Shown here piece after piece: positions 6,569-37,446 of a stretch of 64,000 bases of DNA. How positions within the stretch are numbered: the first letter of the stretch is position 1; each line of letters begins with the position of its first letter. Origin of the DNA: Nakamurella alba (GTDB lineage Bacteria; Actinomycetota; Actinomycetes; Mycobacteriales; Nakamurellaceae); NCBI RefSeq assembly GCF_009707545.1, contig NZ_WLYK01000008.1, forward strand, positions 62,001 to 126,000, in the 5' to 3' direction. The notes under the pieces were generated by a model. That model worked only from the letters and a program-made list of their open reading frames with translations. It did not search any database and was not told where the DNA came from. The translations under genes and the position numbers were made by a program.

Positions 6569-6997
6569 CCCCAACGTGTCCGATCGTCGGCGGGCCCGGT
6601 CCTACAGGTGGTGGTCGCGCCGTGCGATGCACGGTCAGGGGTTCACCGACCCCGGGCGTCTCCGGTCGGTGCGCCACGCTGACGGTGCAAGGATGCGGCT
6701 CGAAAGTGTTACTCCACAAGAGGGACAGTTGCGCCGTCCGAGGGGTCGAAATACCCACGGTGAGGGTGTTACTGGTCTCCAGCGCCACGATCCGGCGACG
6801 GGGTGACGAGAGATCATCTCCGGGATCGGCGCACGGTCACGGCGACCTCACCCTCAGGGGTGACGAACGGGCGACACGCCACCGTCGGGTGACTTTTCAA
6901 CGTTTTCGCGCACGCGAGGCGTGTCCGCCACGACACGCTCATGATCGCGGCGTCAGCGATCGGTGGACCGGGCACTTGCGGCCGCTCGCCGGACGGC
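6569..6997 (-). promoter_or_regulatory. Intergenic region upstream of the BcsB-like operon, with paired GTGTTACT boxes
   Basis: These 429 bp hold no gene I can support. Read toward the operon, AGTAACAC occurs twice 60 bp apart (plus-strand GTGTTACT at 6706-6713 and 6766-6773), each followed by a pyrimidine pair and TC. Such spaced direct repeats suggest activator or repressor sites about 135-205 bp upstream of the first start codon. I could not match them to a named regulator and could not find a cyclic di-GMP riboswitch core. Confidence 0.3.
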
Positions 6998-8401
6998 TCA
7001 GGACCGGTAGAACTCCTGGCCGTTCGCGATCAGTACGGGGAGGGTGAACATGCCCCGACCTGCCACGTAGGTGCGGTGGGCGGAGAACTCGGCGGCACTC
7101 GCCGGTCGGCCCAGCATGCGGCTGTAGAGCGCATCCATCCGGATCCGGGCGAAGGCGGTCGAGTGCACCAGTGCGGCGGTGACGTGCCCGCGGCCGTACC
7201 GCTGGGCCAGCGAGACGTCACGTGCGGTCTCGGCGGCGGTCGGCGCCCGCCCGATGACGCTCCGGTACAGCCGCCCCACCCAGGTGGTGGTGTTGTTGCC
7301 CGCGAGGGCGAAGGCCTCCGCAGATCCGCACAACTGCTCGTAGATGTCGCTCAGGGTGGCGCCCTTGGCCAGCCGGGCCACCAACGTGACCGTGCCCGCG
7401 GACGACGGTGCCCGGCCGAGGCACTGCTCGTGGGCGCCGGTGGTGTAGCGGCCGTACCAGGAGGCCGAGACGGCGACCACCGCGGCCACCCGGTCCCGGC
7501 TGGTGGCGCCGATCATCAGGTTCGAGACCGCCTGGCGCGCCGAGGATCCCGGCGCGGTGGAGTAGTAGGACTGCCCGATCATCCGGTAGTAGACGCGGTT
7601 CACGAAGTCGATCGCCCGGCTCGAGGTCCAGCGCGGGAACGGTGTCCACGGTGTGCCGACCCGGATGTCGATGTACGGGTGCTGGGCCGGGTCCAGCCAC
7701 TGCAGGATGTCGACCAGGGCGCCGGCGTCGATGGCCACGCAACCTGCCGTCGCACTGCCGGTCGAGACGTGCAGGAAGAACGCGGACCCGGCGCCCGGCA
7801 CCTGGTCGAGGTTGTAGCCGATGTTGACCGCGTAGTCGTAGGCACGGCCGGCGGCCAGCAGGTTCTCCGAGGCGCCGCCGGGCGAAGATGCCTGCCGCAC
7901 ATGGGTGTTGTAGGTGGGGGAGGAGGTGTTGGAGTCCCACCAGTCGTAGCTGTCGGTGGTGAACCAGGGCATCTTCGTCCCCGGGTTCGCCTGCCGACCG
8001 AAGGCCTGGTCCAGCACGAACTGTCCGGCCGGGGTACGGGTCGAGCCCTCCGAGGCCGCACCGATCCCTCCGGCGCCGACCCGGGCGACCACCGGCCCCA
8101 CCACCTGGCGCCAGGTGCCGTCGGAGTTGCGCTGCCAGGCGGTGAGGGTGCCGCTGGTGGCGCTCGACGAGGACGTCGCGACGCTGATCACCTGGGAGCT
8201 CGACGCCGGGATCGCGGCGAGGGCCGGCATCGGAGTCGTGGCCTGTGCGGTGTTCGTCGTCGGCAGGGCCGAGGCGCCGGCGCTCGCCGGCAGCAGGACC
8301 GCCAGTGCCACCGCGAGCAGCGGTGCCAGGACCTTCGCGACCCGGCGGTGCCGACGGGCCGTGGATCCTCTCGTCTCGCCGGATCCTGCTGACCTCACCA
8401 T
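6998..8401 (-). CDS. Secreted L,D-transpeptidase-like protein (YkuD fold) with C-terminal DUF4214 region
   Basis: The ATG at 8401 has a strong ribosome site (GGGAGGT, 5 nt spacing) and gives 467 residues. A twin-basic N-terminus and hydrophobic core (about 19-44) form a signal peptide. Residues about 70-250 are the YkuD-type catalytic domain, with H211 in FFLHVSTG and C221 in AGCVAID, the His and Cys of the transpeptidase motif. The remainder (about 262-467) has two copies of a helical unit resembling DUF4214, including DFVNRVYYRMIGQ and WVGRLYRSVIGRAPT. L,D-transpeptidases crosslink peptidoglycan stem peptides (3-3 bonds) or tether proteins. DUF4214 occurs in secreted surface proteins and may bind wall polymer. 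Combining the two in one protein is unusual. It is monocistronic, with the dps terminator upstream. Confidence 0.75.
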   Translation of the reverse strand: MVRSAGSGETRGSTARRHRRVAKVLAPLLAVALAVLLPASAGASALPTTNTAQATTPMPALAAIPASSSQVISVATSSSSATSGTLTAWQRNSDGTWRQVVGPVVARVGAGGIGAASEGSTRTPAGQFVLDQAFGRQANPGTKMPWFTTDSYDWWDSNTSSPTYNTHVRQASSPGGASENLLAAGRAYDYAVNIGYNLDQVPGAGSAFFLHVSTGSATAGCVAIDAGALVDILQWLDPAQHPYIDIRVGTPWTPFPRWTSSRAIDFVNRVYYRMIGQSYYSTAPGSSARQAVSNLMIGATSRDRVAAVVAVSASWYGRYTTGAHEQCLGRAPSSAGTVTLVARLAKGATLSDIYEQLCGSAEAFALAGNNTTTWVGRLYRSVIGRAPTAAETARDVSLAQRYGRGHVTAALVHSTAFARIRMDALYSRMLGRPASAAEFSAHRTYVAGRGMFTLPVLIANGQEFYRS

Positions 8402-23294: not shown

Positions 23295-24056
23295 TCAGGC
23301 ATCCCGGCGGCGCAGCACGATCAGCGCGATCACCCAGATCAGCACGGCGTAGCCGAGGAACGCGAGCAGACCCTGGACGGGGGTCGGGGCGTTCGGGTCG
23401 ACGACGTTGAAGTTGCCGGCCGGTCCGGGCAGCTGCCGGAGGTCGGCGACGAACTGGGCACCGGCGCGGAAAGGCAGCCACGGGCCGATCTTCTCGCCGA
23501 CCGTCGGGATCAGCCCGACCAGCTGCTCGACCAGCAGCGGCCAGAGCAGCAGGATCGCCACCGCCCCCGCGGACTGCCGGAGCAACGATCCCACCGCCAC
23601 CGCGATCACCGCGCAGATCGGGAACAGCACCGCGTGGCCGGCCACCACCCGCCAGAGCTCGCCCTGCAGGTCCAGCGGCAGCGGCGGGCTCTTCGCCAGC
23701 AGCTTGGTGAGGAAGAAGGCGCCGACGGCGCAGATGAAGCCGATGACCGCGCCGAGCACCGCCAGCACCACGGTCTTCGACAGCAGCACCGCGAACCGGT
23801 TCGGGGTGGCCAGGAACGCGGTCCGGATGGTGCCGAACCGGTACTCGGTGGTCACCGCCAGCGCGGCCAGCACCAGGAAGATGTTCTGCCCCAGCCCGAC
23901 CCCGCTGAGCGCGAAGGTCGGGACGGCGTTGCGGCCGTTCTCCAGCAGTCCGGCCAGCAGCGCGAACAGCGCGGACGCGACGAGGATCGCCACCAGGCAC
24001 CAGTAGGGGGAGCGGGTGGAGAAGAGCTTGATCCGTTCGACGTTGACCAGTGACAT
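23295..24056 (-). CDS. ABC-2 type transporter permease
   Basis: 253 residues with six membrane helices and the ABC-2 pattern (LVNVERIKLFSTRSPYW start, TEYRFGTIRTAFLATPNR after helix 2). The start codon lies one base after the stop of the ATPase gene, so the two form a unit. Exporters of this class move peptides, antibiotics or lipids; no substrate can be assigned. Confidence 0.88.
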   Translation of the reverse strand: MSLVNVERIKLFSTRSPYWCLVAILVASALFALLAGLLENGRNAVPTFALSGVGLGQNIFLVLAALAVTTEYRFGTIRTAFLATPNRFAVLLSKTVVLAVLGAVIGFICAVGAFFLTKLLAKSPPLPLDLQGELWRVVAGHAVLFPICAVIAVAVGSLLRQSAGAVAILLLWPLLVEQLVGLIPTVGEKIGPWLPFRAGAQFVADLRQLPGPAGNFNVVDPNAPTPVQGLLAFLGYAVLIWVIALIVLRRRDA

Positions 24057-24057
24057 G

Positions 24058-25074
24058 TCAGCGGTTCCCTTCCGGTCGGAACGGATCGGCGGGCGGCAGG
24101 TCGGCGGCGGTCAGCGCGCTCGCCGCGGCGGCGTGTGCGGCCGGGGAACCGGCGAAACCGTGCGCCCCGTACTCCACCGAGTCCCCGGTCAGCTGCATGA
24201 ACGCCTGCTCCAGTGATCCGGTGACCCCGGTCAGCTCGTGCAGGGTGATCCCCTCCTGACCCGCGATGTCGCCGACCTGCTCGATCGGGACGCCGGAGAT
24301 CGACAGCGCCGGTGGGGTCTTCTCGTCGCCGGCGATCGGCTCGGCCGCGATCCCGCGTGCGGTGAGCGCGGCCCGCAGGTCGTCCAGCCGGGGACTGCGC
24401 ACCCGCACCGAGGTCTCCGTCGCCTGGGCGATGAAGTCCGGGGTGGCCGCGTCGGCGATCAGCCGGCCCCGCCCTATCACCACGAGATGGTCGGCGGTGA
24501 GCGCCATCTCGGACAGCAGGTGGGAGGAGACCAGCACCGTCCGGCCGGCCGCGGCCAGTGACTTCATGAACTGCCGGATCCAGAGGATGCCCTCGGGGTC
24601 GAGTCCGTTCACCGGCTCGTCGAAGAGCAGCACCTCGGGGTCGCCGAGCAGCGCCCCGGCCAGGCCGAGCCGCTGCTTCATGCCGAGGGAGAACTTGCCG
24701 ACGGACTTCCCGGCCACGTCGGACAGCCCGACGACCTCCAGCACCTCGCCCACCCGGCCGGCCGGGATCCCGCTCGCCGCGGCCATCCAGCGCAGGTGCG
24801 CGCGGGCGGTGCGGTTGGGGTGCACCCAGTTGGCGTCGAGCAGCGCCCCGACCTTGGTGAGCGGCTTCTTCAGCGCGGCGTACGGGACGCCGTCGATGAG
24901 GGCCTGCCCGGACGTCGGGTTGTCCAGGCCGAGGATCATCCGCATCGTGGTGGACTTCCCGGCCCCGTTCGGGCCCAGGAAGCCGGTCACCGTCCCCGGT
25001 CTGACCTGGAAGGACAGTTGGTCCACGGCCCTGGTGCGGCCGTAGACCTTGGTCAGGCCCTGCACGTCGATCAT
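24058..25074 (-). CDS. ABC transporter ATP-binding protein (ABC-2 exporter)
   Basis: I choose the ATG at 25074 (338 residues) because AGAGAGG stands 6 nt upstream; an in-frame ATG at 25119 lacks a ribosome site. Walker A GPNGAGKST is at 34-42, the signature FSLGMKQRL near 128-136 and Walker B VLLFDEP at 148-154, followed by a switch-His block VSSHLLSEM. A C-terminal regulatory segment of about 110 residues extends beyond the core, as in bacitracin-type BcrA ATPases. It pairs with the next permease gene. The divergent neighbour is the Hsp70-like gene, 273 bp away. Confidence 0.92.
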   Translation of the reverse strand: MIDVQGLTKVYGRTRAVDQLSFQVRPGTVTGFLGPNGAGKSTTMRMILGLDNPTSGQALIDGVPYAALKKPLTKVGALLDANWVHPNRTARAHLRWMAAASGIPAGRVGEVLEVVGLSDVAGKSVGKFSLGMKQRLGLAGALLGDPEVLLFDEPVNGLDPEGILWIRQFMKSLAAAGRTVLVSSHLLSEMALTADHLVVIGRGRLIADAATPDFIAQATETSVRVRSPRLDDLRAALTARGIAAEPIAGDEKTPPALSISGVPIEQVGDIAGQEGITLHELTGVTGSLEQAFMQLTGDSVEYGAHGFAGSPAAHAAAASALTAADLPPADPFRPEGNR

Positions 25075-25347
25075 GTCGGCCTCTCTGGGATCGGTCGAGC
25101 CGGCGCCGGCCTCGGTCATCGACGGCCTCGGTCAACGCCGCGCCGGCCTTGGTCAGCACTGTGCGCCTCACAGCATGCCGTACCGACTCCTCCGTGCCAC
25201 GGACGGAGGGTGAGGAGTGATCACCGGAGCGTGGTGTTCGCCGGGACCTCGCCGTCCGGGCACGCAGCCGTCGACGGCATGACACGATGGGCCACCGGTG
25301 TGCAGGGTGCGCACCGGAACCTGACGGACCGGGCGGAACACGGAACC

Positions 25348-27351
25348 ATGCGGTTGTTGGCCATCGACTTCGGCACGTCGAACACGGTCGCCGCGCTCGC
25401 CGTCGACGGCCAGGCCCCGCGCACCGTCACCTTCGACACCTCGCCGCTGCTGCCCTCCGCCGTGTACGTCGCACCGGACGGGTCGGTGGCCACCGGGCGG
25501 GAGGCGCTCCGGCAGGCCCGGCTGGATCCCAGCCGCTTCGAGCCGAACCCCAAGCGCCGCATCGACGACGGCGAGGTACTGCTCGGCGACCGGATCGTGC
25601 CGGTGGTGGACCTGCTGGCCGCGGTGCTGCGCACGGTGGCGACCGAGGTCCGCCGCCAGCTGGGTGGCGGGTTGCCCGACGAGGTCCGGCTGACCCATCC
25701 GGCGAACTGGGGCGCGGCCCGACAGAACACGCTGATCACCGCGGCCCGGGCCGCCGGGCTCGGCGCGAACCCGGTGCTGCTGCCGGAACCGGTCGCCGCG
25801 GCCGCCCAGTTCACCCGGCTGCCCGGCCGGACCCTGCCGCCCGGCGGCGCGGTCGCCGTCTACGACCTCGGCGGTGGCACCTTCGACGTCGCCGTGGTCA
25901 CCCGCAACGGTGACGGCCCCGGTCAGGGCGAGTTCCACGTGCTGGCCGAGGCCGGTCTTCCCGACCTCGGCGGTCTGGACTTCGACCAGGCGATCCTCGA
26001 CCACGTCGGACGCGGCGCCTCCGCCGTGGACCCGGGCCGCTGGCAGCAGCTGCTGCGGCCGGCCGACGCCTCCGCGCGACGCACCGCCCGCGCCCTCGCC
26101 GAGGACGTGCGGGCCGCCAAGGAGACGCTGTCCCGGTACGCGCAGACCGAGGTCGCGCTGCCCGACCCGTTCACCGACGCGCACCTGACCCGCACCGAGT
26201 TCGAGGGCCTGATCCGGCCCGACCTGGTGCGGTCCATCGATCTGCTCGGCGACACCCTGCGCACCGCCGGGGTCACCCCGGACCGGCTGACCGGGGTGTT
26301 CCTGGTCGGCGGCTCCTCCCGCGTGCCCCTGGTGGCCGGGCTGATCCAGGAGCGGCTGCGACTCACCCCGGTGGCCCTGGACCAGCCGGAGACCACCGTC
26401 GCCCTCGGCGCGCTGCTGGTGCCGGTCCGCCGCAACGCCCAGCGGACCGTCGCCCTCACCGAGGGCACCCCGGGCCGCCCGCCGCAGCCGCCGACCGGGC
26501 CGCACGCCCGGCCCACCGGCCCGCACACGCCTTCCGGTCCGCACAGCGCCGGCCCGCACGCCTCGGGTCCGCACAGCTCGGGGACGCCCGTTGTCGGCTC
26601 GCGTCCCCCGGGGCAGAACGACCGCGGCACCGCCCGCCGCCGGCGCGGCCTGCTGGTCGGCGGGGTGGGCGCCGTGGTCGCGATCGCCGCGGTGCTGGTG
26701 GTGCTGTTCGCCACCGGGGTCTTCTCCGGCACCGGCGGCACCGCGACCAGCAGCACGTCGGCGCCGAGCACGTCGGGCGGGTCGCCGTCCTCGGGCGCGT
26801 CGTCCGGCGGCACCGATCCGTCGCAGTCCGCCGGGACCTCCGGTGCCGGGCCGAACGGCGTGTTCACCACCGACGAGGTCGACTTCGTCGGGGCGTCGAT
26901 CAGTCGGCTGACCAACTGCACCGTCCTCACCGACGGGTTCAACAGCTCGCTGCCGACCGAGCTGTCGGCGGACCGGGTGATCCGCTGCGACCTGCCGGAA
27001 TCGATCTCCGACGAGGCCGGCATCTTCTACCGGACACTGGTCTACGTGCTGACCGCGCCGGACGCCGATGCGAGTGGCTATCTCGACCGGTTCGCCGAGC
27101 TGCGCGCCGTGCCGGACGACGGCTCGGACCCGCGGGACAGCGACGAGACCTTCGACACCGGGCCCGGCGGAAGGGTTGTCACCGCGGAGGACATGCCGGC
27201 CTTCGGCGAGGCCTACACCGGTCACGGCAACTCGGTGCTCGCCTGGACCCTGGACGGCACACCGTTGGTCGGGCTGATCGCGGTGCAGGGCGCCACGGTC
27301 GCGTCCGAGATGCTCGGGCTCTGGGACAGTCAGTACAAACCACGCGGGTAA
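25348..27351 (+). CDS. Membrane-spanning Hsp70-like ATPase with extracytoplasmic C-terminal domain
   Basis: 667 residues. Residues 1 to about 370 are an actin/Hsp70 ATPase domain: DFGTSNT at 7-13 (phosphate 1), the RLTHPANWG block, DLGGGTFD at 173-180 (phosphate 2) and VGGSSRVP at 320-327 (adenosine). The usual peptide-binding SBD is missing. Instead a linker with five GPH tripeptides (384 to about 412) leads to a membrane helix (about 434-459), a Ser/Gly stalk and an outside domain (about 512-667) with two Cys. It begins an operon-like run with two dynamin-like genes and a GrpE-like gene. I infer that nucleotide state is transmitted across the membrane or to the dynamins; a chaperone role is unproven. 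The start ATG has only a weak upstream purine run. Confidence 0.85.
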   Translation: MRLLAIDFGTSNTVAALAVDGQAPRTVTFDTSPLLPSAVYVAPDGSVATGREALRQARLDPSRFEPNPKRRIDDGEVLLGDRIVPVVDLLAAVLRTVATEVRRQLGGGLPDEVRLTHPANWGAARQNTLITAARAAGLGANPVLLPEPVAAAAQFTRLPGRTLPPGGAVAVYDLGGGTFDVAVVTRNGDGPGQGEFHVLAEAGLPDLGGLDFDQAILDHVGRGASAVDPGRWQQLLRPADASARRTARALAEDVRAAKETLSRYAQTEVALPDPFTDAHLTRTEFEGLIRPDLVRSIDLLGDTLRTAGVTPDRLTGVFLVGGSSRVPLVAGLIQERLRLTPVALDQPETTVALGALLVPVRRNAQRTVALTEGTPGRPPQPPTGPHARPTGPHTPSGPHSAGPHASGPHSSGTPVVGSRPPGQNDRGTARRRRGLLVGGVGAVVAIAAVLVVLFATGVFSGTGGTATSSTSAPSTSGGSPSSGASSGGTDPSQSAGTSGAGPNGVFTTDEVDFVGASISRLTNCTVLTDGFNSSLPTELSADRVIRCDLPESISDEAGIFYRTLVYVLTAPDADASGYLDRFAELRAVPDDGSDPRDSDETFDTGPGGRVVTAEDMPAFGEAYTGHGNSVLAWTLDGTPLVGLIAVQGATVASEMLGLWDSQYKPRG

Positions 27352-27424
27352 CCTGCGGCTCGTACCGGTCCCGTGTCCGCACGGCCCGGTCGCGCACCCG
27401 ATCGGCGGAGGAGGGAGACCGAGC

Positions 27425-29029
27425 GTGCAGGGACCGCTGTCCGCCGCCGTCGGCGGCATGTGCACCGCGCTGCTGCCGCAGGTCTCCGGACCGGTCGCCG
27501 CCGGTGTCCGCGAGGTGCTCGCCCGGCTGGACACCCCGCTGCAGCTGGCCGTCGCCGGCCGCATCAAGTCCGGCAAGTCCACCCTGGTCAACTCGATCAT
27601 CGGCCGCCGCGTGGCGCCCACCGACGTCGGTGAGTGCACCCGGCTGGTGACCCGCTTCCAGTACGGGACCGTCGACCGCATCGAGGTCGTGCTCAAGGAC
27701 GGCAACCGCACCACGATCCCGTTCGCGCCCGACGGCGGGGTGCCCGCCGAGCTGGGCCTGGACATCGACACGGTGTCCCACCTCGAGGCCTACCTGACCT
27801 CGGCCCTGCTGGCCGACATCACGGTCATCGACACCCCCGGGCTGGGATCGCTGGACGCGGCGTCGGTCTCGCGCACCGATGCGCTGCTCGGCACCCCGGG
27901 TGCCGCGCCGGCCGGCGGCGAGTCGGAGGACGGCACCACCGAGATGGACCCGGTCTCCCGGTTCGCCGTGGCCGGCGCCGAGGCGGTCATCTACGTGTTC
28001 ACCCAGTCGGTGCGGGCCGACGACACCGCGGTGCTCACCTCCTTCACCGCGGCCACCGCGTCCCGTGAGGCCGGCCCGGTCAACGCGCTCGCGGTGCTGA
28101 ACAAGGCCGACACGGTGCCGCCGGAATCGGTGGCCGGTGCCGAGGGTTCGGTGGCCCGTGCCGCCCGGTTGCTCGCCGCCGAGCAGGCCGCCGTGCTGCG
28201 GCCGCGGGTGGCCGACGTGCTGCCGCTGATCGGGCTGCTGGCCGAGACCGCCGAGACCGGCGCCTTCACCGCCGGCGACGCCGAGGCGCTGCGCGCGCTG
28301 GCCGGCGTCGACCCGGGCATGTTCTCGGCGATGACGATGGCCGCCGACCTGTTCACCATGATGGACGCGCCGGTGGACCCGGCCACCCGGATCCGGCTGC
28401 TGCAACTGCTCGACCTGTACGGGATCGGGCAGGCCGTGGCGATCATCCGGGAGGACCCGGCGATCTCGGCGGGCGAGCTGCGGCGCCGGCTGCTGGACGC
28501 CTCCGGTCTGGCCGAGCTGCGCCGCCGGCTGGGCGAGGTGTTCCGGTCCCGGGCCGACGGGATCAAGGCCAGCGCGGCCCTGGCGTCGTTGGCCTCGCTG
28601 GCCGCCGCGTCCACCGACTGGGCCGAGCGGCAGCGGATCCATGACGCCATCGAGGTGCTGTTGCAACGCCCGGAGGCACACCAGCTGAGGCTGATGGAGG
28701 CGCTCACCCTGGTGACCAGCCGGTCGGTAGCGATGCCGGACGACCTGGCCACCGAGATCCTCACCCTCGGCGGGTCGACCCGGCCCGACGAGCAGCTGGG
28801 ACTGGCCGGTGCCGACCAGGCGACGCTGCAGCAGGCGGCGCTGGACCGGGCCGGGTGGTGGCGGTCCTACGCCTCGTTCGGTGCGACCCCGGCGCAGAGC
28901 CGGGTGGCGCACGTGGTGCACCGCGCGTACTTCCTGCTCTGGCAGGAACTCAAGGGTGACGTCCCGGCGGCCGCGCCGGGCACCCTCGGCAGGCCGCCCC
29001 GACCGGCCGGTGAGGATTGGCGATCATGA
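27425..29029 (+). CDS. Bacterial dynamin-like GTPase (IniC/IniA-type), first of a pair
   Basis: 534 residues from GTG. The GTPase domain has G1 GRIKSGKST (45-53), the G2 Thr in VGECTRLVTR (near 72), G3 DTPG (136-139) and G4 NKAD (226-229). The rest is a helical bundle (about 300-534) without a clear membrane segment, the size and layout of the shorter mycobacterial partner IniC. Dynamin-like proteins often act as pairs in which one partner carries the membrane paddle; that would be the 1099-residue protein downstream. An acidic loop (about 158-176) interrupts the domain between G3 and G4. Its stop overlaps the GrpE-like start (ATGA), tying the two together. Confidence 0.85.
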   Translation: MQGPLSAAVGGMCTALLPQVSGPVAAGVREVLARLDTPLQLAVAGRIKSGKSTLVNSIIGRRVAPTDVGECTRLVTRFQYGTVDRIEVVLKDGNRTTIPFAPDGGVPAELGLDIDTVSHLEAYLTSALLADITVIDTPGLGSLDAASVSRTDALLGTPGAAPAGGESEDGTTEMDPVSRFAVAGAEAVIYVFTQSVRADDTAVLTSFTAATASREAGPVNALAVLNKADTVPPESVAGAEGSVARAARLLAAEQAAVLRPRVADVLPLIGLLAETAETGAFTAGDAEALRALAGVDPGMFSAMTMAADLFTMMDAPVDPATRIRLLQLLDLYGIGQAVAIIREDPAISAGELRRRLLDASGLAELRRRLGEVFRSRADGIKASAALASLASLAAASTDWAERQRIHDAIEVLLQRPEAHQLRLMEALTLVTSRSVAMPDDLATEILTLGGSTRPDEQLGLAGADQATLQQAALDRAGWWRSYASFGATPAQSRVAHVVHRAYFLLWQELKGDVPAAAPGTLGRPPRPAGEDWRS

Positions 29030-29784
29030 GCTGGCTGTCCGGATTCCGGCGGGGCGAGCACGAACGGGAGCCGGTCGATGACATCCCGCCGCCGGAACCG
29101 ATCGCACCGCCGGAGCCGCTGGCCCCGCGCCGGCACCTGGCCGACGACTTCCGGGACGCCGCGGCCACCGAGTACACCCCGGAGCCGCTGAAACCCCGCC
29201 ACCACCTTGCGGACTCGTTCCGGGAGGGCGCGGCGACCGCCGATCCGGAGCGGAAGACACTGGCCGACCGGTTCCGCGAAGGCGCTGCGTCGGCCGACGA
29301 CCACGAGGCGGGACGGTTGCGTGCGCTCGCCGAGTCCGCCGGTGCCAAGGGCCGGTCCGTGGGCGAGGCCGGCGCCGACCGGCTCAAGGCGCTGGCCGGG
29401 TCGTTCCAGGACGGTTTCGTCGAGGCGGGATCCGACGAGGAGACCGCACCGGGGGACGGAGCGGTGGAGGCCGTCACGGATCCCGCCGCAGCCGAGCGCC
29501 GGGTGCTGATCGACCTGCTCATCTACGCCTGGGACCGGGCGAAGAGCCCCGGCGTGTGGGAGCGCTTGTCCGCGGGGCTGGAGTCCGTCGGGGTGCAGGT
29601 GATCCGGCCGGACGGGGAGAAGTTCGACCCTGCCCACCACGAGGCCGGCGGGATCGAGCGGACCGACGACCCGGCCAGGCACGACGTCGTCGCCGAGACC
29701 GAGCTGGCCGGGTTCGTCGACCGCGGCACCGTCATCCGGGAGCCGGTCGTGGTCGTCTACCGGCTCGCCGACCCGGTGCCCTGA
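29026..29784 (+). CDS. GrpE-like nucleotide-exchange-factor candidate with N-terminal LADxFRxGAA repeats
   Basis: 252 residues, start overlapping the dynamin stop. The C-terminal part (about 155-246) resembles the GrpE head: VLIDLLIYAWDRAKSPGVWE, then VQVIRPDGEKFDPAHHEAGG (compare GrpE G-x-FDPxxHEA), and a final strand VIREPVVVVYR (compare VLRPAxVxV). The N-terminal half lacks the long GrpE coiled coil. Instead it has four copies of a HLADDFRDAA-like decamer at 38-47, 60-69, 79-88 and an outlying LKALAGSFQDG at 120-130. A GrpE-like partner coded with an Hsp70-like ATPase and dynamins strongly suggests it exchanges nucleotide on that ATPase. Similarity is domain-level and by eye. Confidence 0.65.
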   Translation: MSWLSGFRRGEHEREPVDDIPPPEPIAPPEPLAPRRHLADDFRDAAATEYTPEPLKPRHHLADSFREGAATADPERKTLADRFREGAASADDHEAGRLRALAESAGAKGRSVGEAGADRLKALAGSFQDGFVEAGSDEETAPGDGAVEAVTDPAAAERRVLIDLLIYAWDRAKSPGVWERLSAGLESVGVQVIRPDGEKFDPAHHEAGGIERTDDPARHDVVAETELAGFVDRGTVIREPVVVVYRLADPVP

Positions 29785-30320
29785 ACCGCCCCTGACCCGG
29801 AGATCCGGGACCGGTGGCGCTGAACGGCCGCCCGGTTGCCGCAGCCGGGACTGCAGTACCGCTGCCGGCCGTTGCGTGAGACGTCCGCGTACACGCGCGT
29901 GCAGTCGACCGCCGCGCACCGGCCGAGCCTTCCCATGCCCAGCCCGGTCAGGTGCAGGGCGGTGCCCACCGCGACCAGCGCCGCGACCTGGCGGTGCACC
30001 GGCAGGCCGTCCGCCCGGAAGTGCAGGTGCCAGCCGGTTCCCGCGTGGTCGGTGAGCTGCGGCGGGGCCGAATACTCGGTGAGCAGGCCGTTGAGCAGCT
30101 CGGCCCGGGTGATCGGCGCCGCGGCGTCCACCACCGCCGACCATCGGTCGAAGAACGAGGCAAGGGCGGTCAGGTCGGCCGGGGTGACAGCGCACTCCAG
30201 CACCAGACCCGCCCCGGCACAGCGATCGGCGAGTGCGGTGGTGTCGGTCGGCGGGTCATTGGCCAGATCGACGGCCAGCAGCACCGGATCCCGCCCGTAA
30301 GGGTTGAACTGCACAAGCAC
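29757..30320 (-). CDS. CGNR zinc-finger protein (putative transcription regulator)
   Basis: 187 residues from GTG. The N-terminal ABATE-type stress-sensing domain (FNPYGRDPVLLAVDLANDP opening) is followed by the C-terminal zinc ribbon GRCAAVDCTRVYADVSRNGR and YCSPGCGNRAAVQRHR, where CxxxxC and CxxxCGNR supply the ligands. Family members are thought to bind DNA in stress control. Its 3' end overlaps that of the GrpE-like gene by 28 bp, and its start is 19 bp from the divergent mini-gene at 30340. It lies inside the Hsp70-dynamin run on the opposite strand, so it may be a local regulator or a passenger. Confidence 0.85.
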   Translation of the reverse strand: MLVQFNPYGRDPVLLAVDLANDPPTDTTALADRCAGAGLVLECAVTPADLTALASFFDRWSAVVDAAAPITRAELLNGLLTEYSAPPQLTDHAGTGWHLHFRADGLPVHRQVAALVAVGTALHLTGLGMGRLGRCAAVDCTRVYADVSRNGRQRYCSPGCGNRAAVQRHRSRISGSGAVQGTGSASR

Positions 30321-30339
30321 ATGACATCACGCTGGAACC

Positions 30340-30510
30340 ATGCACACCACCCACATCTGGTCCACCCGCTCCAGTCACCTCACCAGCGACGGCCTCGTCC
30401 GCTACCAGCAGTGCGCCTGCGGCCGGCAGCGGGTGCTGCTGGACGCCTTCGACGGCGGCGCTCCGTCGGCCGAACTCGCCCGTCCTGCACGGGTTCCGGT
30501 GGCCCGGTGA
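30340..30510 (+). CDS. Conserved 56-residue mini-protein
   Basis: 56 codons from ATG at 30340. The sequence opens MHTTHIWSTRSSHLTSDGLV, then RYQQCACGRQRVLLDAF. I recall many actinobacterial proteins of this size beginning with TxxxWxTxSxHLTSxGxVRYxxCxCGxxxV, so it looks real despite its length. The Cys-x-Cys and His residues could bind a metal. It diverges from the CGNR gene with only 19 bp between start codons, so both mRNAs must be nearly leaderless. Function unknown. Confidence 0.6.
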   Translation: MHTTHIWSTRSSHLTSDGLVRYQQCACGRQRVLLDAFDGGAPSAELARPARVPVAR

Positions 30511-30584
30511 TCTCCGGGCGGTGACCGGCGCCGATCGCCCGGTGCGGACCTGCCGGACCACTCCCCTGGAAGCGCCCGGACCGG

Positions 30585-30590
30585 TAGTTT
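30585..30590 (+). promoter_or_regulatory. Candidate -10 (TAGTTT), leaderless start of the second dynamin gene
   Basis: TAGTTT is 7 nt upstream of the ATG at 30598; the intervening bases are C-rich with no ribosome site. It implies that the second dynamin has its own promoter. Confidence 0.45.
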
Positions 30591-30597
30591 CACCCCC

Positions 30598-33500
30598 ATG
30601 ACGCCCAGGGACCCGTTCGCCACCGTCCAGGCGCTGGGCATCACCGCCCCGCGCGCCGGTGCGCGTCCGGTGCAGCCACCGTTGCCGCAGGCGGTGAAGC
30701 AATGGCGTGACGCCTCGGTGACCTGGTTGCGGGTGGACGACCCGGAGGCCGCCGGGGTGCTGGCCGCCCGGCAGCCCTCGACCACCGCGCCCCGGATGGT
30801 CGTCGTCGGCGAGACCAACCGCGGCAAGTCGTCGTTGGTCAACGCGCTGCTCGGCACCCCGGGCCTGTCGCCGGTCGACGCCGGCGTCGCCACCTGCAGC
30901 TATCTCACCTTCGTGCACTCCGACCAGCCGTACGCGGTCGCCCGGTTCGGCGGCGGCATGGCCGACATCACCTTCCCCGTCACCGATCTCCGCAACTGGG
31001 CGACGGTGGACGGCGAACCGGACCTGGACGTCCCGCCGCCCCGGATGATCGAGATCGGACTGCCGTCCGAGATGGCCCGCGCGGTCACCGTTGTCGACAC
31101 CCCGGGTGTCGGCGGGTTGGTCGCGGCGCACGCCGAACTCGCCGCCGAGGCGGCGGCCGAGGCGACCGCGCTGCTCTTCGTGGTCGACGCGTCCGCGCCG
31201 TTCACCAGCGGTGAGCTCGGCTTCCTGAACATGGTCGCCGACCGCGTGGACAGCGTGCACTTCGCCGTCACCAAGACCGACGCGTACCGCGGCTGGCGCG
31301 AGATCGTCGATGCCGACCGGCAGTTGCTGGCCCGGCACGCCCCGCGTTTCACCGATGCGCTGTTCCACCCGGTGTCCAGCCGTTTGGCCGATGCCGCCGC
31401 CGGCCAGGCCGACCCGAAGATCGCCGGCATGATCCTGGAGCAGTCCGGCGTGCCGGCGCTGCGCAACGTGCTCACCGGCGAGGTCGCGGCCGCCGCGGCG
31501 ATGCTCTCCGAGGCGAACACCATCCGCAGCAGCATCACGGTGATCGCGGGTGCGGTCACCAAGCTCGACCTGTCCCGCAAGGCGCTGACCGCCGGTGCGG
31601 CACAGGCGGAGTCGCTGAAGTCCAGGCGGGAGGAGCTGCTGGGGCAGCGGAAGTCGGGCGGCCGCAGCTGGCAGGTCAACCTGCGCTCCGAGATCCAGCG
31701 CGCCCGTGTCGATCTCACCCACGAGACCGCCCGCGAGGTGCGTGAGGCCGGGCAGATGTTCCGCGGGTCGATCGACACCGCGGACAACGCCGAGCTGAAG
31801 AACATGCCGTACCACATCGACGCCTACGCGAAGGCGATGACGCATCGGGCGCACGCCCGGCTGATCGACGCGATGGGGCGGATCACCCGGAACGTGCTGG
31901 CCGAGCTGTTCACCCAGGACGAGCTGACGGTGCTCATCTCGCAGTTGGCGACCCGGCCGTACGAGGCGGTGCAGTCCCGCGGGCCGGAGAAGCAGCGCAA
32001 CCTGGACGAGTCGATCATGACGCTGTCCGGTGCGGGCATGGGGTTCTCGCTCTCGCACATCGTGGTCAGCCTGCCGTTCATGGCGCTCCCGGCCGCCTTC
32101 GGCATCGCGCTCGCGCCGATCTCGGTGGTGGTGGGCGGCGCGGCCGCGCTGTTCCTTCTCAAGTCGCGCAAGCGGATGGCCGAGCGCCAGCACCTCAAGC
32201 AGTGGCTGATGGAGGTGCTGGGCGAGTCGAAGGCGCAGATCGACCAGGGCATCGCCGAGCAGTTCGTGGATGCCGACCAGCAGCTGACACTGGCGCTGGA
32301 CGACGCACTCTCGCGCCAGGTCGCGGCGCTGGACGCGGAGATCAAGGAGGTGGACGGAGCGCTGAAGCTGGACGCGAGCGAGCGGGCCGGCCGACTCCGG
32401 TCCATCGACGAACGCAAAGGTGCCGGCACCACGCTGATCTCGGGTGGGGAGGCGCTGCTGCAGCGGATCCGGTCGACGAGATTCGGTGCGGCACCGGTGA
32501 ATCCGGCCGCGCCCGGGATCCCGGCCGGGTTCCGCCCGGCTGCGCTGCCGACCGTTCCCGGTGCCACTGCCGCCCCGCCGGTCGTGCCGGTTCCGCAGGC
32601 TGCACCCGCCGGTCCGCCACGGCCGGGTGCCGGGGCGGCAACCCTGTCCTTCGGTGCACTGCTGCGTAAGAACGGTGCCGCTCCGGGCGGCCCCCCTGCT
32701 GCTCCCGCGCCGGCCGGGCCACCCGCTGCTGCCGCGGCCCCCGTGCCGGCCGGCCCTCCCGCTGCTGCCGCGGCCCCCGTTCCTCCCGTGCCGGCCCCGG
32801 TTCCGGCGGCCGCGGCGCCCGCACATCCTGCAGCGCCCCCGGCCGCGGGTCCTGCGGGCTCGGCGCAGGTGGCCGCCGGCCCGTTCGTCCCGGTACCGGC
32901 GACACCACCTCCTGCCTCCTCACCGATCGCTCCGCCCGGACCGCAGGGACTGCGGCCGATCCGGGTCCCGGCCGGACTGCCGGCGGTGATCGCCGGTGCC
33001 CGCCCGGCACCGGCACCCGGGGTGCCGGTGAGCCCCGGGCCGGCCGCCGCGCCCGGTGGTCCGGACGTGTCGGAGACCCAGGCGGGAGCCGCCGCGCCGG
33101 GAGTTGCCGCGCCCACACCGGCCGTGTTCCGGCCGGTGCTGCCGCAGGGCCTGGTCCGGCTCCGCGAACGGGCCCAGCAGGTTGCCGCGGAGCAGGCGGC
33201 CACGCAGCAGCCCGCTCCGGGCGCGCCCGCCGCCCCCGCTGCGTCGGGGCCGCCGCCGTCCCCGCAACCCGCGTTCATGTCGCCGGCAACGGCACTGTCG
33301 CCGGCATCGGCAGCGCACCCTGCAACGGCACCGGCATCGCCGGCAGCACCGCCGTCGGCAACGGCACCGCAACCCGCAATGGCACCGCAGCTCGCAACGG
33401 CACCGGTCCCGCAATCGGGAGCGGCAGGAGCGCCGGCCCCGCCGCCGGCTCCTCAGCGCCCGGCCGGTGGCGCACCGTTCATCCGGCCGCCGGCGAACCA

Positions 33501-33897
33501 GCCGCCGCGCGGGGTGTCCTTCGCCGGGATCTCGGCGATCGCCCGGGCGGCGGGTGTCCGCCCGGCCGGCGCGTCGGCCACCTCGCCCGTGCCCGATGTC
33601 GGACCGCACCCCCCGAACGCCTCTCCGGCCGCGGTCCCGGCTGCGCCGCCCATTGCGCCCGCTGCGCCCACTCCGCCCGCTGCGCCCACTGGGACCATTG
33701 CCTTGGCTGCCACCGCGCCGGCGATCGCGGCAGCTCCGGCGACCCTCGACGCGGTCACACCCGCTCCGCGGGGACGCCATCACGCGCCGGATCCGGACCA
33801 TGACCCGGCGCCGGGCGGCCAACCGGACGGCACCGGATCATCGCCGGAGGTATCTGCGACCGCGGAAGGGGACTCCTCGGGCCCGCACACGAACTGA
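30598..33897 (+). CDS. Bacterial dynamin-like GTPase (IniA-type) with a 450-residue Pro/Ala-rich tail
   Basis: 1099 residues. The GTPase domain has G1 GETNRGKSS (71-79), a G2 Thr in AGVATCSYL (near 99), G3 DTPG (167-170) and G4 TKTD (225-228). A helical stalk follows, then a hydrophobic hairpin (about 478-521, SLSHIVVSLPFMALPAAFGI and on to ISVVVGGAAALFLL) that serves as the membrane paddle. The folded part ends near residue 640, the length of IniA. From there to the end the chain is low-complexity Pro/Ala with scattered short basic patches, unlike other dynamins I know. It should work with the 534-residue partner upstream to tubulate, fuse or seal membrane. The tail may cross or coat the wall, or recruit partners. 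Confidence 0.85.
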   Translation: MTPRDPFATVQALGITAPRAGARPVQPPLPQAVKQWRDASVTWLRVDDPEAAGVLAARQPSTTAPRMVVVGETNRGKSSLVNALLGTPGLSPVDAGVATCSYLTFVHSDQPYAVARFGGGMADITFPVTDLRNWATVDGEPDLDVPPPRMIEIGLPSEMARAVTVVDTPGVGGLVAAHAELAAEAAAEATALLFVVDASAPFTSGELGFLNMVADRVDSVHFAVTKTDAYRGWREIVDADRQLLARHAPRFTDALFHPVSSRLADAAAGQADPKIAGMILEQSGVPALRNVLTGEVAAAAAMLSEANTIRSSITVIAGAVTKLDLSRKALTAGAAQAESLKSRREELLGQRKSGGRSWQVNLRSEIQRARVDLTHETAREVREAGQMFRGSIDTADNAELKNMPYHIDAYAKAMTHRAHARLIDAMGRITRNVLAELFTQDELTVLISQLATRPYEAVQSRGPEKQRNLDESIMTLSGAGMGFSLSHIVVSLPFMALPAAFGIALAPISVVVGGAAALFLLKSRKRMAERQHLKQWLMEVLGESKAQIDQGIAEQFVDADQQLTLALDDALSRQVAALDAEIKEVDGALKLDASERAGRLRSIDERKGAGTTLISGGEALLQRIRSTRFGAAPVNPAAPGIPAGFRPAALPTVPGATAAPPVVPVPQAAPAGPPRPGAGAATLSFGALLRKNGAAPGGPPAAPAPAGPPAAAAAPVPAGPPAAAAAPVPPVPAPVPAAAAPAHPAAPPAAGPAGSAQVAAGPFVPVPATPPPASSPIAPPGPQGLRPIRVPAGLPAVIAGARPAPAPGVPVSPGPAAAPGGPDVSETQAGAAAPGVAAPTPAVFRPVLPQGLVRLRERAQQVAAEQAATQQPAPGAPAAPAASGPPPSPQPAFMSPATALSPASAAHPATAPASPAAPPSATAPQPAMAPQLATAPVPQSGAAGAPAPPPAPQRPAGGAPFIRPPANQPPRGVSFAGISAIARAAGVRPAGASATSPVPDVGPHPPNASPAAVPAAPPIAPAAPTPPAAPTGTIALAATAPAIAAAPATLDAVTPAPRGRHHAPDPDHDPAPGGQPDGTGSSPEVSATAEGDSSGPHTN

Positions 33898-33987
33898 GCG
33901 GGACAGGGAACCGGATCGCTCCGCCAGGAGTCGGACCGGTACTGACCTCGGCAGCCTGGCTGCCCCGTCCCCGGGAAGGGGGACCAC

Positions 33988-35646
33988 ATGTTCACCGATG
34001 GTGACATCTCGCAGGACGACGCGGACGACCAGGTCCACACCGGTTTCGTCGCCGACGACCCGATCGACGACGGCACCGATCACACCGGTGTCGATCTCTC
34101 CACCGCCGACTCCGAAGGCCTGGGTGGCAGCCCCGACACGTCGAGCCCGGAAGCGGAGGACCCGGCAGGCACCACGGCCGACCCCTCCGATCCCTGGCCG
34201 CACCCCGGCTACAACGAGGAGGGCGAGCTCGAGTCCACCGACCCGGGCACCGAGGACCCGGTCACCCCGGAGGGGGGTGCGGACCCGGCCACCGGCGACG
34301 ACCTGGTGATGGTGGGTGCGGACGGCAGCGAGGTCTCCCTCGGCGAGCCCAACGTCACCTTCGCCGGCGAGTACGACGCGGTGGCGGTCGAGGCCGAGGA
34401 CGGCAGCGTCGAGGTGTACGCGGACGCCGACCACAACGGCACCGTCGACGTCGCCATCAGCATCCAGCCGGACGGTTCCTTCGGCATCTGGGTCTCCGAC
34501 GGTGCGGGCGGCTGGGACCTGCAGGCCACCGGTGTCGTCGACTCCTCGGGCGAGGCGCAGATCGACGACACCGTCGACACCGGGTTCGCGGACACTCCGC
34601 CGTCGGCGATCGCCGGCGACGCTGCCGGCACCACCGATCCGGTCGGCACCACCGATCCGGCCGGGGCCGCCGGCACCGACGAGCCGACCGCGGCACAGGA
34701 GTACCCCGGAGTGGTGCCCGGTGACCTCGCCGTCGCCGACGGCGACGAGTACATCGACGCCGGCCCGCCGACCGAGGACATGGACGGCGACGGGGTCCCG
34801 GAGACCGCCGTGGTGCAGTCCGACGACCGGATCATCCAGATCTCCGACATCGACGGCGACGGCCGCGCCGACGAGATGCTGCAGGTGGACACCACCACCA
34901 ACGAGGCCGTCATCCTCACCGACGACGGCTCCGGCACCTGGACCGTCGCGGCGCAGGGCACCATCGGCGAGGACGGCGACTTCGTCCCGGCCGACGGAAC
35001 CACCGGGACCGTGCAGGAGGCCGGCACCTCCGACCCGGCGGACTCCCCGGAGATCGTCTTCACCGACGCATCCGGCGAGCAGACCGATCTCGGCGTCCCG
35101 GACCAGGATCTTGACGGCGACGGTGTCCCCGAGTCGGTGCTGGCCCAGGCCGAGGACGGCAGCTACCTCATCGTGTCCGACGTGGACGCCGACGGCGGAC
35201 CGGACCAGATCATCCAGATCGACCCGGACTCCGGCGACGCCACCTGGGCCGTCCCGGACGGCGACGGCGGCTGGGAGGTCGTGGCCACCGGACACCTGGA
35301 GAGCGACGGCAACCTGGTGATGGACGCAGAACCGCAGTCGGCCGTCCAGCCGGCGGGCCACACCACCGAGCAGTCCCAGGGCTCGGTGATGGTGTCCTCG
35401 TCCGGCGGCCAGTTCTTCGATGCAGGGGAGGCCACCCTGGATGCGGACGGCGACGGGGTCGCGGACACCGTGCAGGTACCCGGCCCGAACGACTCGACGT
35501 TGTTCTACCAGGACTCGGACGGCGACGGGGTGGCCGACAAGGCCTGGACCACCGACTCCTCCGGCGAGGTCACTGCGACCTATGTCCTGGATGCGCAGGG
35601 CAGCTGGACCCCGGGCAGCGGCATCGGTGCCGGGTCGCAGTCGTGA
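33988..35646 (+). CDS. Acidic repeat protein with seven DxDGDG-type loops
   Basis: 552 residues from ATG after a good ribosome site (AAGGGGG). There is no signal peptide or membrane segment. After a Thr/Asp/Pro-rich N-terminus come a half unit (DADHNGTVD) and three full units. Each unit has two calcium-loop-like motifs about 22 residues apart (such as DMDGDGVPE and DIDGDGRAD, the first near residue 264), followed by a GGWEVVATGHL-like strand. The loops resemble dockerin, thrombospondin-3 or VCBS calcium sites. It is a paralog of the 36166 gene and lies 90 bp after the dynamin, a position reminiscent of iniB beside iniA/iniC, but I see no sequence match to IniB. Function unknown; surface or cytosolic location undecided. 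Confidence 0.7.
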   Translation: MFTDGDISQDDADDQVHTGFVADDPIDDGTDHTGVDLSTADSEGLGGSPDTSSPEAEDPAGTTADPSDPWPHPGYNEEGELESTDPGTEDPVTPEGGADPATGDDLVMVGADGSEVSLGEPNVTFAGEYDAVAVEAEDGSVEVYADADHNGTVDVAISIQPDGSFGIWVSDGAGGWDLQATGVVDSSGEAQIDDTVDTGFADTPPSAIAGDAAGTTDPVGTTDPAGAAGTDEPTAAQEYPGVVPGDLAVADGDEYIDAGPPTEDMDGDGVPETAVVQSDDRIIQISDIDGDGRADEMLQVDTTTNEAVILTDDGSGTWTVAAQGTIGEDGDFVPADGTTGTVQEAGTSDPADSPEIVFTDASGEQTDLGVPDQDLDGDGVPESVLAQAEDGSYLIVSDVDADGGPDQIIQIDPDSGDATWAVPDGDGGWEVVATGHLESDGNLVMDAEPQSAVQPAGHTTEQSQGSVMVSSSGGQFFDAGEATLDADGDGVADTVQVPGPNDSTLFYQDSDGDGVADKAWTTDSSGEVTATYVLDAQGSWTPGSGIGAGSQS

Positions 35647-36165: not shown

Positions 36166-37446
36166 ATGCATTTCGACGAGTACAACGACGACGTCCAGAC
36201 CGGCGAGGACATCTCGGTCACCACGCAGAGCGGCACGGTCGACCTCGGCCCCGCCACGTACGACTCCGACGGTGACGGCATGGCCGACTCGGTCGTCGTC
36301 GGCGAGGGCGACATCACCTACGTGGTCACCGATCACGACGGCGACGGCCAGGCCGACGAGATGACCGCCTACGACCAGGACGGCAACCAGATCGACCCGC
36401 AGACCGGCGAGCCGGTCGAGACCGGCTCCGGCAGCATCGGCACCGGCAGCACCGGTACCGGCGGCACCACGGAACCGGGTGAGGATCCCATCGAGGACCC
36501 GAACACCGGCTACGGCACCGCTTCCGGCGACGACGAGGGCATCACCGTGCTGGCCGACGACGGCTCGCAGGTGGCGGTCGGCGATCCCACCGCCGACCTC
36601 GACGGCGACGGCCAGGCCGACACCGCGGTCGTGCAGAACGACGACGGTTCGGTCGTCGGCTACACCGATGTGGACGGCGACGGCCAGGCCGACCAGATCA
36701 CCCAGATCGACGCCGAGGGCAACGTGCTCATCGCGGTCACCGACGGCAACGGCGGCTGGGAGGTCGCGGCGTCCGGGCACCTGGACGAGGACGGCAACCT
36801 GGTGCAGGACGAGAACACCGGCGGCACCGAGGCCGGCTACGGCAACGAGAGCGGCACCGGCTACGGGTCCGAGGGCGGCGCGGGCACGGAGAGCGGCTAC
36901 GGCACGGGCACCGAGAGCGGCACCGGCTACGGGTCCGAGGGCGGCGCGGGCACGGAGAGCGGCTACGGCACGGGCACCGAGAGCGGCACCGGCTACGGGT
37001 CCGAGGGCGGCACGGGCACGGAGAGCGGCACGGGTACCGAGAGCGGCTACGGCACCGAGGGTGGCGCCGGCGGCGACATCACCGTCACCAACGACGGCCA
37101 GGAGTACGACCTGGGCGCCCCGACCGCCGACATGACCGGCGACGGCACCCCGGACACCGTGGTCAGCCAGGCCGAGGACGGCACCATCGTCGGCTACACC
37201 GATGTCGACGGTGACGGCGAGGCCGACCAGATCACCGCCATCTCGCCCGACGGATCCGTCGTGATCGGCGTGCCGGACGGCCAGGGCGGCTGGGAGCAGG
37301 CGGCCACCGGCTACCTCGACGAGGACGGCAACTTCGTGGAGAGCCGGCCGACCGGTGCGGGTGCGCCGGCCGGTGCGGGTGCGGCCTCCGGCTCGGGTGC
37401 CTACGGCACCTCCGAGGAGACCGGCACCGGCAGCTACGGCGGCTGA
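36166..37446 (+). CDS. Acidic repeat protein with six DxDGDG-type loops and a Gly/Tyr/Glu linker
   Basis: 426 residues from ATG, with GAGGAG 10 nt upstream. Three paired-loop units carry DSDGDGMAD/DHDGDGQAD, DLDGDGQAD/DVDGDGQAD and DMTGDGTPD/DVDGDGEAD, each second loop followed by QITxI and (units 2 and 3) a GGWE strand. The units are joined by Gly/Thr/Ser linkers. One linker is a tandem 22-residue repeat (SGTGYGSEGGAG + TESGYGTGTE). There is no signal peptide. It is a paralog of the 33988 protein, with the same unit and loop spacing. A strong hairpin terminator follows. The loops predict calcium binding, but in the cytosol they might be structural only. Function unknown. Confidence 0.7.
   Translation: MHFDEYNDDVQTGEDISVTTQSGTVDLGPATYDSDGDGMADSVVVGEGDITYVVTDHDGDGQADEMTAYDQDGNQIDPQTGEPVETGSGSIGTGSTGTGGTTEPGEDPIEDPNTGYGTASGDDEGITVLADDGSQVAVGDPTADLDGDGQADTAVVQNDDGSVVGYTDVDGDGQADQITQIDAEGNVLIAVTDGNGGWEVAASGHLDEDGNLVQDENTGGTEAGYGNESGTGYGSEGGAGTESGYGTGTESGTGYGSEGGAGTESGYGTGTESGTGYGSEGGTGTESGTGTESGYGTEGGAGGDITVTNDGQEYDLGAPTADMTGDGTPDTVVSQAEDGTIVGYTDVDGDGEADQITAISPDGSVVIGVPDGQGGWEQAATGYLDEDGNFVESRPTGAGAPAGAGAASGSGAYGTSEETGTGSYGG
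36850..37030 (+). repeat. In-frame 66-bp coding minisatellite
   Basis: Two identical-phase 66-bp units (36850-36915, 36916-36981) plus a diverged partial third code the 22-residue linker repeat. Since 66 is divisible by three, gain or loss of units changes linker length without a frameshift. Confidence 0.85.

Follow-up and report, generated by a model that had tools for sequence, protein, structure and literature searches.

The stretch analysed here (the window) comprises 64,000 nucleotides (nt) of Nakamurella alba (assembly GCF_009707545.1, contig NZ_WLYK01000008.1, positions 62,001 to 126,000), whose genome is 6.05 Mb long; all coordinates are window positions. Within it, a gene for a protein that ends in a GrpE head (GrpEh) lies between genes for two dynamin-family GTPases, DynA and DynB, with a gene for an Hsp70-like ATPase upstream (Table 1). 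DynA and DynB are labels of convenience, and no orthology to the same-named Streptomyces proteins is claimed. The ATG of the head gene overlaps the stop codon of the upstream dynamin gene (ATGA). GrpEh and its relatives appear to make up a GrpE clade without the long helix in a nearly fixed dynamin context, and recognition of this clade seems to be new.

Table 1. Features of the GrpEh locus and its surroundings, in window coordinates.
Feature	Position	Strand	Basis
GrpE-head protein (GrpEh), 252 residues	29026..29784	+	open reading frame, translation, Pfam GrpE
GrpE head, residues 153-247, two short helices and beta domain	29482..29766	+	AlphaFold pLDDT, VIA-align
Two copies of a 23-residue repeat (residues 29-51, 52-74) with LADxFR 1 and 2	29110..29247	+	shuffle test, DNA repeat finder
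Third LADxFR copy (LADRFREGAA)	29260..29288	+	pattern search, DNA repeat finder
Fourth, degenerate copy (LAGSFQDG)	29392..29414	+	pattern search, DNA repeat finder
Hsp70-like ATPase: nucleotide-binding domain only, Pro-rich linker, one transmembrane segment, C-terminal domain	25348..27351	+	Pfam, PDB search; linker and transmembrane segment by eye
Dynamin-family GTPase A (DynA)	27425..29029	+	Pfam Dynamin_N 3.5e-12
Dynamin-family GTPase B (DynB), long Pro/Ala-rich tail	30598..33897	+	Pfam Dynamin_N 2.8e-13; best PDB match IniA 6j72, 1.5e-14
DUF6802 repeat protein	33988..35646	+	Pfam
Second DUF6802 repeat protein	36166..37446	+	Pfam
CGNR zinc-finger regulator, between head gene and DynB, opposite strand	29757..30320	-	Pfam
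ABC transporter ATPase and permease, upstream of module	23295..25119	-	

The C-terminal part of GrpEh is a genuine GrpE head. The initial annotation had called it GrpE-like, and Pfam, profile and structural comparisons all agree with that description. The protein matches PF01025 (GrpE) significantly (E=1.4e-7, 31.7 bits, cut-off 25.8), with residues 179-244 covering only positions 99-163 of the 165 in the profile; because the score exceeds the cut-off, public annotation may already label such proteins GrpE. A phmmer search of the PDB with the whole protein gave no GrpE match, whereas a profile of 13 diverse heads, the window's included (A1), did find GrpE. With A1, 13 PDB sequences match at E<=1: seven at 7.8e-5 or better are all GrpE (GRPEL1 at 1e-7, Mycobacterium tuberculosis 8gb3 at 1e-6, Escherichia coli 1dkg at 5e-5, and Geobacillus and Thermus GrpE), and the remaining six, at 0.65 and worse, are ribosomal S19. 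Each of the 13 heads in A1 also matches Pfam GrpE at E<=0.01. In an AlphaFold2 model from 44 sequences, residues 151-250 reach a predicted local distance difference test (pLDDT) of 90-97 in each block of ten, and confidence is lower N-terminal to them. At E<=0.001 Foldseek gives 11 hits, GrpE chains without exception; TM-scores of the whole model against GrpE are low (0.22-0.30, by query length) because the uncertain N-terminus fails to superpose. VIA-align gives Z 10.5 and 2.3 Å over 93 residues against GRPEL1 (9bls_B), and Z 9.7-11.6 for the head alone against four GrpE chains, compared with Z 4.9 for the best non-GrpE row (risS and PASTA domain rows lie at Z 2.6-4.9).

The head gene occurs almost always with the dynamin pair. 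Relatives were collected from a 150-genome sample of the order, in which 44 genomes match the window protein at E<=0.001 (43 once G051, which matches through canonical GrpE only, is set aside), and from a named collection, of which the best 80 of 221 candidate stretches encoding relatives were used. Besides the window's, 42 genome-sample loci were read, with flanks of about 7 kb to either side as far as the contigs reach. The two sets overlap (e.g., L082 and L035, or L096 and L039, hold the same genes), so that some genes are counted twice. L075 and L076 (canonical GrpE) are outside the head counts, as is L223, which groups with canonical GrpE; in L073 the dynamin frames are in pieces and the head protein was read in part (60 residues). 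Both dynamins lie on the head's strand in 41/42 genome-sample loci, and DynA and DynB surround the head in 79/80 named loci, the 80th being cut by a contig end. The link between head and dynamin genes noted in the initial annotation is supported. The exception among the genome-sample loci is L063 (G010:C41), whose head protein has two hydrophobic segments; another contig of that genome (7.8 kb) carries relatives of DynA, DynB and the Hsp70-like ATPase and no head. Viewed from the dynamin side, DynA is found at >=200 bits in 44 of the 150 order genomes, and 42 of these 44 have the head, the exceptions being G006 and G059. More distant dynamin relatives, such as those of family f7 at about 80-130 bits, have no accompanying head match.

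The association extends beyond the order. A strong head match (E<=1e-14) occurs in 16 of 394 class genomes, and 13 of the 16 lie outside the order; of ten such outside loci fetched, eight have dynamins near the head and five an Hsp70-like gene, in shuffled order. These counts exclude L223 (G676), which lies beside a DnaK-like Hsp70. Across 396 phylum genomes, match scores beyond the window's genome peak at 51.2 bits. A weak phylum match of 42.4 bits outside the class (G242) proved to be a divergent head in the order Hsp70-GrpEh-DynA, and divergent members can therefore hide among canonical scores. Spacing between DynA and the head varies, with a 4-nt overlap in 32/79 named loci and more than 600 nt in 16/79. 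In L154 (Amycolatopsis, 6528-7747) DynA and the head gene are separated by two additional frames, one of which looks TetR-like by eye. At L214 (G022:C5:64000-80000) the only match is an 84-residue piece of DynA (71% identity), with no head detected, and the locus may be a decayed cassette. L224 (G600:C114) is an 11-kb contig whose cassette groups with heads of family f14; the genome that it is assigned to belongs to another family and has 5% contamination, and the contig is probably a contaminant.

By their sequences, the heads are a clade distinct from canonical GrpE. A 53-row tree places 35 heads apart from L223 and 17 canonical GrpEs (support 99/98); rows L183, L207 and L222 sit on long branches. 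Residues G189, G197, F200, D201, H205, G229, R238, V242 and V244 are common to 128 head rows, the window's included, and 27 canonical GrpEs. Other positions are specific to the subfamily: D232 and P240 are present in all 128 rows (a set that leaves out L073, L074, L207, L222, L223, L224 and L226, so that 100% excludes divergent heads), E226 in 97%, Y245 in 96%, T213 in 95% and G209 in 93%. The E226 and D232 sites are hydrophobic in most canonical rows, and E226 adjoins the position of R169 (M. tuberculosis numbering), a residue that contacts DnaK in that species. The window's head shares 40-73% identity with twelve heads from other families and species, and 17 columns are invariant across the 13 sequences. 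Conservation within the family is thus that of a head of about 95 residues that is kept and an N-terminus that varies. A GrpE copy that decays while the operon carries it along would account for the poorly conserved N-terminus and for two genomes (G059 and G006) that retain the dynamins without a head. The invariant columns, together with subfamily positions held at 85-100%, point instead to selection on the head and make such a relic highly improbable.

N-termini that could reach the membrane recur in several lineages, either with a transmembrane (TM) segment or with tryptophan plus basic residues. Those of families f4, f10, f12 and f15 have two hydrophobic segments by eye, and in f103 a hydrophobic stretch is followed by a lipobox-like L(A/T)GC (by eye) and then a TM segment. 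Tryptophan and basic residues mark the N-terminal start in 54 of 131 rows (L207 and L223 left out), a count subject to uncertain start codons, which were set by rule in the homologs. The window protein begins with MSWLSGFRRG, a looser form of this pattern. These features suggest that the proteins are tethered to the membrane with the head in the cytosol.

GrpE is regarded as a chaperone cofactor, with the long helix part of its function. The initial annotation had proposed that this dimerising helix was lost, and its sequence is indeed missing: nothing in the window protein matches the first 98 positions of the PF01025 profile, and the conserved block QRVSAEYANYRKRVDRDRE of the genome's own canonical GrpE has no counterpart when the heads are aligned with three canonical GrpEs from the genus, the genome's own included. 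In the same alignment, 13/13 heads are eight residues shorter between the two short helices. AlphaFold draws low-confidence helices at residues 74-108 and 112-128, and the result is therefore "no GrpE long-helix sequence" and not "no helix at all", which leaves room for an N-terminal helix as such. The genome also encodes canonical dnaK, grpE and dnaJ about 57 kb away on the same contig, and the gene after them looks by eye like an HspR-like regulator; the head protein is therefore an additional protein.

The presence of this canonical set on the same contig and the GrpE head fold would suit an extra exchange factor serving the housekeeping DnaK. In M. tuberculosis, the DnaK-GrpE interface consists of three regions (PMC10803776). 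Mutations in the long-helix patch nearly abolish exchange and greatly reduce binding, whereas binding is similar with mutated short-helix or head patches, one of which lowers exchange (PMC10803776). The Tyr257 hairpin of DnaK meets D110 of GrpE in that species. The features by which M. tuberculosis GrpE binds DnaK are mostly missing from GrpEh, a canonical GrpE is already in the genome, and the gene sits beside dynamins and not dnaK. A second DnaK factor is accordingly improbable.

The most conspicuous feature of the variable N-terminus in the window protein is a set of LADxFR repeats: LADDFRDA (residue 38), LADSFREG (61), LADRFREG (79) and the degenerate LAGSFQDG (123). Copies 1 and 2 sit in a 23-residue tandem duplication, PEPLxPRxHLADxFRxxAAT, with 48/69 DNA bases identical. 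The repeats reported in the initial annotation are real: when the N-terminal 145 residues were shuffled 2000 times, the score of the best 23-residue pair was never reached (a test that covers this pair and not all four copies jointly), and a DNA repeat finder detects copies at 29137, 29206, 29260 and 29392, the last through its match to the second copy. The initial annotation had suggested that each copy binds one dynamin or membrane unit. In favour of such a docking array, the spacing of L and F could give short amphipathic helices, and low-confidence helices are predicted at 74-128. In the comparison of homologs near dynamin genes that the initial annotation had suggested, the head is conserved and the N-terminus varies; the repeats were found in no homolog, an outcome that the annotation itself had named as refuting its reading. 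The LADxFR-type pattern matched the window protein alone, with none in 44 other rows (42 homologs and two canonical GrpEs) and none in 135 whole stop-to-stop frames (132 heads and three canonical-type), which were used so that the choice of start codon could hide no copies. A looser pattern found one LASLFR at the extreme N-terminus in 4/135 frames. Six same-genus cassettes in the genome sample, five close ones (proteins read as 100-289 residues) and the divergent G115 (213 residues), keep head and dynamins without repeats. The repeats were rejected as conserved docking units, and a docking role in the window protein is itself improbable; in sequence comparison they are private to this protein, a local linker elaboration outside the shared mechanism.

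The Hsp70-like neighbour matches the Pfam HSP70 profile (2.1e-29) over positions 112-369 of 599, which is the nucleotide-binding domain (NBD). No Pfam match lies beyond profile position 369, where the substrate-binding domain (SBD) would be, and the PDB matches listed (60 of 120) all fall within residues 2-377. By eye, the nucleotide-binding blocks DFGTSNT, DLGGGTFD and VGGSSRVP are intact, as in DnaK, and a TM segment and a further C-terminal domain follow the NBD. The protein differs from DnaK in these additions and in having neither a detected SBD nor the Tyr257 hairpin. At the contact positions of the NBD, aligned to the genome's own DnaK (its numbering taken as equal to that of M. tuberculosis DnaK), two of nine hold another residue.

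Gene order and co-occurrence favour some link between the head and this ATPase. The Hsp70 gene is upstream in families f1 and f3 and on the opposite strand after DynB in f4, f10 and f12; G032 has the order DynB-GrpEh-Hsp70-DynA, with a head match of 29 bits. Among 17 genomes of the genus, nine have an Hsp70-like relative (>=140 bits), ten have DynA and eight, counting G032, have the head. Every head-bearing genome of the genus has an Hsp70-like relative at >=140 bits (one-sided Fisher 3.7e-4, with thresholds chosen after seeing the table and no phylogenetic correction). Canonical DnaK scores about 80 bits in this search, and G066 has one further match at 75. Where the Hsp70 gene is not beside the cassette, relatives may be elsewhere in the genome, as in 9/9 genomes of f14 and 3/3 of f15 that were searched, and action in trans is therefore possible. 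The f15 relatives group with the linked ones of f4, f10 and f12 in a quick tree without bootstrap. Association with a non-chaperone Hsp70, as the initial annotation envisaged, thus holds for part of the family (17/42 genome-sample loci and the co-occurrence in the genus), and in 18/19 loci of f14 no Hsp70 is near.

Other genes also recur around the cassette. The gene for the CGNR zinc finger overlaps the 3' end of the head gene; no match to it is among those listed for 44 genome-sample loci or for the named loci. Both DUF6802 proteins, encoded 3' of DynB, hold DxDGDG-type repeats by eye, and a DUF6802 relative is close to the cassette in 66/80 named loci. An ATPase similar to that of the window's ABC transporter occurs near the cassette in 61/80 named loci and a two-component system in 66/80; both counts, like the two-component count for f14 below, rest on single phmmer queries from large families (E<=1e-25). 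Two-component genes lie directly upstream of DynA in the two loci where gene order was read (L154 and L089). The Pro/Ala-rich C-terminal tail of DynB is several hundred residues long, and the GTPase part of DynB resembles IniA and LeoA/LeoBC. A scan of 25100-34100 for promoters and terminators was uninformative, with no promoter-like site and one terminator-like site against a mean of 1.0 in shuffles.

Head homology, a separate clade, a near-constant dynamin pair, a recurrent Hsp70 neighbour and, in several lineages, N-termini with a TM segment or with tryptophan and basic residues are the sequence-level basis for a mechanistic reading. We propose, with a probability of about 0.42, that GrpEh is a re-specified GrpE head, tethered to the membrane, whose binding to the Hsp70-like ATPase couples that enzyme to the dynamin pair; nucleotide exchange is the presumed activity of the head. 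The module would consist of DynA, the GrpE head and DynB, joined in part of the lineages by the Hsp70-like ATPase, and its role would be membrane remodelling. The fast-evolving N-terminus would hold the head protein at the membrane, and the re-specified conserved face of the head would bind the NBD of the module's Hsp70-like ATPase. Binding would set the nucleotide state of this ATPase, by exchange or by locking, and the ATPase would thereby be linked to assembly of the dynamin pair. A fuller version is less probable: in it, the helix-less, membrane-tethered GrpE-type factor would drive the cycle of an SBD-less, membrane Hsp70-like ATPase that serves as a timer or switch for the dynamin pair and not as a chaperone.

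Several observations weigh against coupling of the head to the Hsp70-like ATPase. An Hsp70 with a similar NBD lies in the fetched flanks (about 7 kb) of only 17/42 genome-sample loci, near 1/80 named loci and near 1/19 loci of f14 (Pseudonocardiaceae-type), where a two-component kinase and regulator are near in 19/19. In G062, G104 and G046 the head is kept and the best Hsp70 falls in another, more distant subclade (tree without bootstrap). G059 and G006 keep dynamins and Hsp70 without a head, and G042 has a DynA relative with no head and no Hsp70-like relative above 140 bits. In G010 the head (L063) has no dynamin near it in the 15.5 kb fetched, and the genome has no DynA at >=200 bits. By eye, some subfamily residues are missing from the divergent heads L074, L207 and L226. 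On the structural side, the loop where M. tuberculosis D110 presumably lies is eight residues shorter in 13/13 heads. The R169 position is R or K in only 6/131 rows, and the NBD of the Hsp70-like protein lacks the Tyr257 hairpin, with a gap in the window's protein and in 15 others. Both sides of one known contact are therefore gone, which fits a re-worked, co-adapted interface or a lost interaction alike. The long-helix sequence on which M. tuberculosis GrpE depends for DnaK binding and exchange (PMC10803776) is missing as well.

Much of this would suit a close rival that we hold to be possible and somewhat less probable, in which the head has lost Hsp70 binding and acts as a dynamin adaptor that tethers or nucleates the pair at the membrane, with Hsp70 an optional, separate neighbour. 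The constant neighbours are dynamins and not Hsp70, and f14 genomes retain the head although a two-component system takes the place of Hsp70 nearby. DnaK-contact features have been lost while new conserved acidic positions have been gained, and spacing to DynA is often tight, as in the 32/79 named loci with the 4-nt overlap, though it exceeds 600 nt in 16. Against an adaptor without Hsp70 binding are the genus-level co-occurrence of the head with Hsp70-like relatives, the recurrence of Hsp70 neighbourhoods in distant families, and the Hsp70-like relatives elsewhere in nine f14 and three f15 genomes, which could act in trans. We rate coupling of head and NBD first and the adaptor second because the head goes with Hsp70 as well as with the dynamins, both in genome co-occurrence and across shuffled gene orders.

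The cassette resembles known systems in its parts. The heads share with GrpE and GRPEL1 (PF01025) the head fold and the core residues FDPxxHEA, G[FY], R and V.V; they differ in the absence of the conserved long helix, the shorter helix-bundle loop, the changed R169 position, conserved residues of their own and a clade of their own. LeoABC is similar on the dynamin side, and DynB matches the PADLOC models for LeoA at 3.3e-20 and LeoBC at 7e-16; we know of no GrpE or Hsp70 partner of Leo dynamins. PADLOC matches were obtained for the dynamins only (LeoA/LeoBC) and not for the head or the first DUF6802 protein, and nothing in these results shows a role in anti-phage defence. Neither the head nor the dynamins match PHROGs at E<=0.001, and a tblastn search for a mobile origin found no match in a plasmid collection (phage records and viral contigs were outside the search). 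Among PDB entries, DynB is closest to IniA (6j72, 1.5e-14), which DynA matches at 1e-4, the best match of DynA being 5owv at 2.7e-7. As in bacterial dynamin-like pairs (mycobacterial IniA, PMC6715688; paired dynamin-like proteins, PMC6104087), two dynamin-family GTPase genes occur together; here a GrpE head lies between them, often with an Hsp70-like NBD gene beside. No description of a GrpE-dynamin cassette was found among the open-licence papers listed in the searches.

Regulation of actinobacterial dynamins is, to our knowledge, little understood. The cassette makes a partner set for these dynamins concrete, namely a GrpE head, an SBD-less Hsp70 and two dynamins, which can be tested in ordinary soil actinomycetes. 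A head-only clade that accompanies dynamins would imply that the Hsp70-GrpE nucleotide switch, or at least some of its parts, had been recruited to control membrane remodelling.

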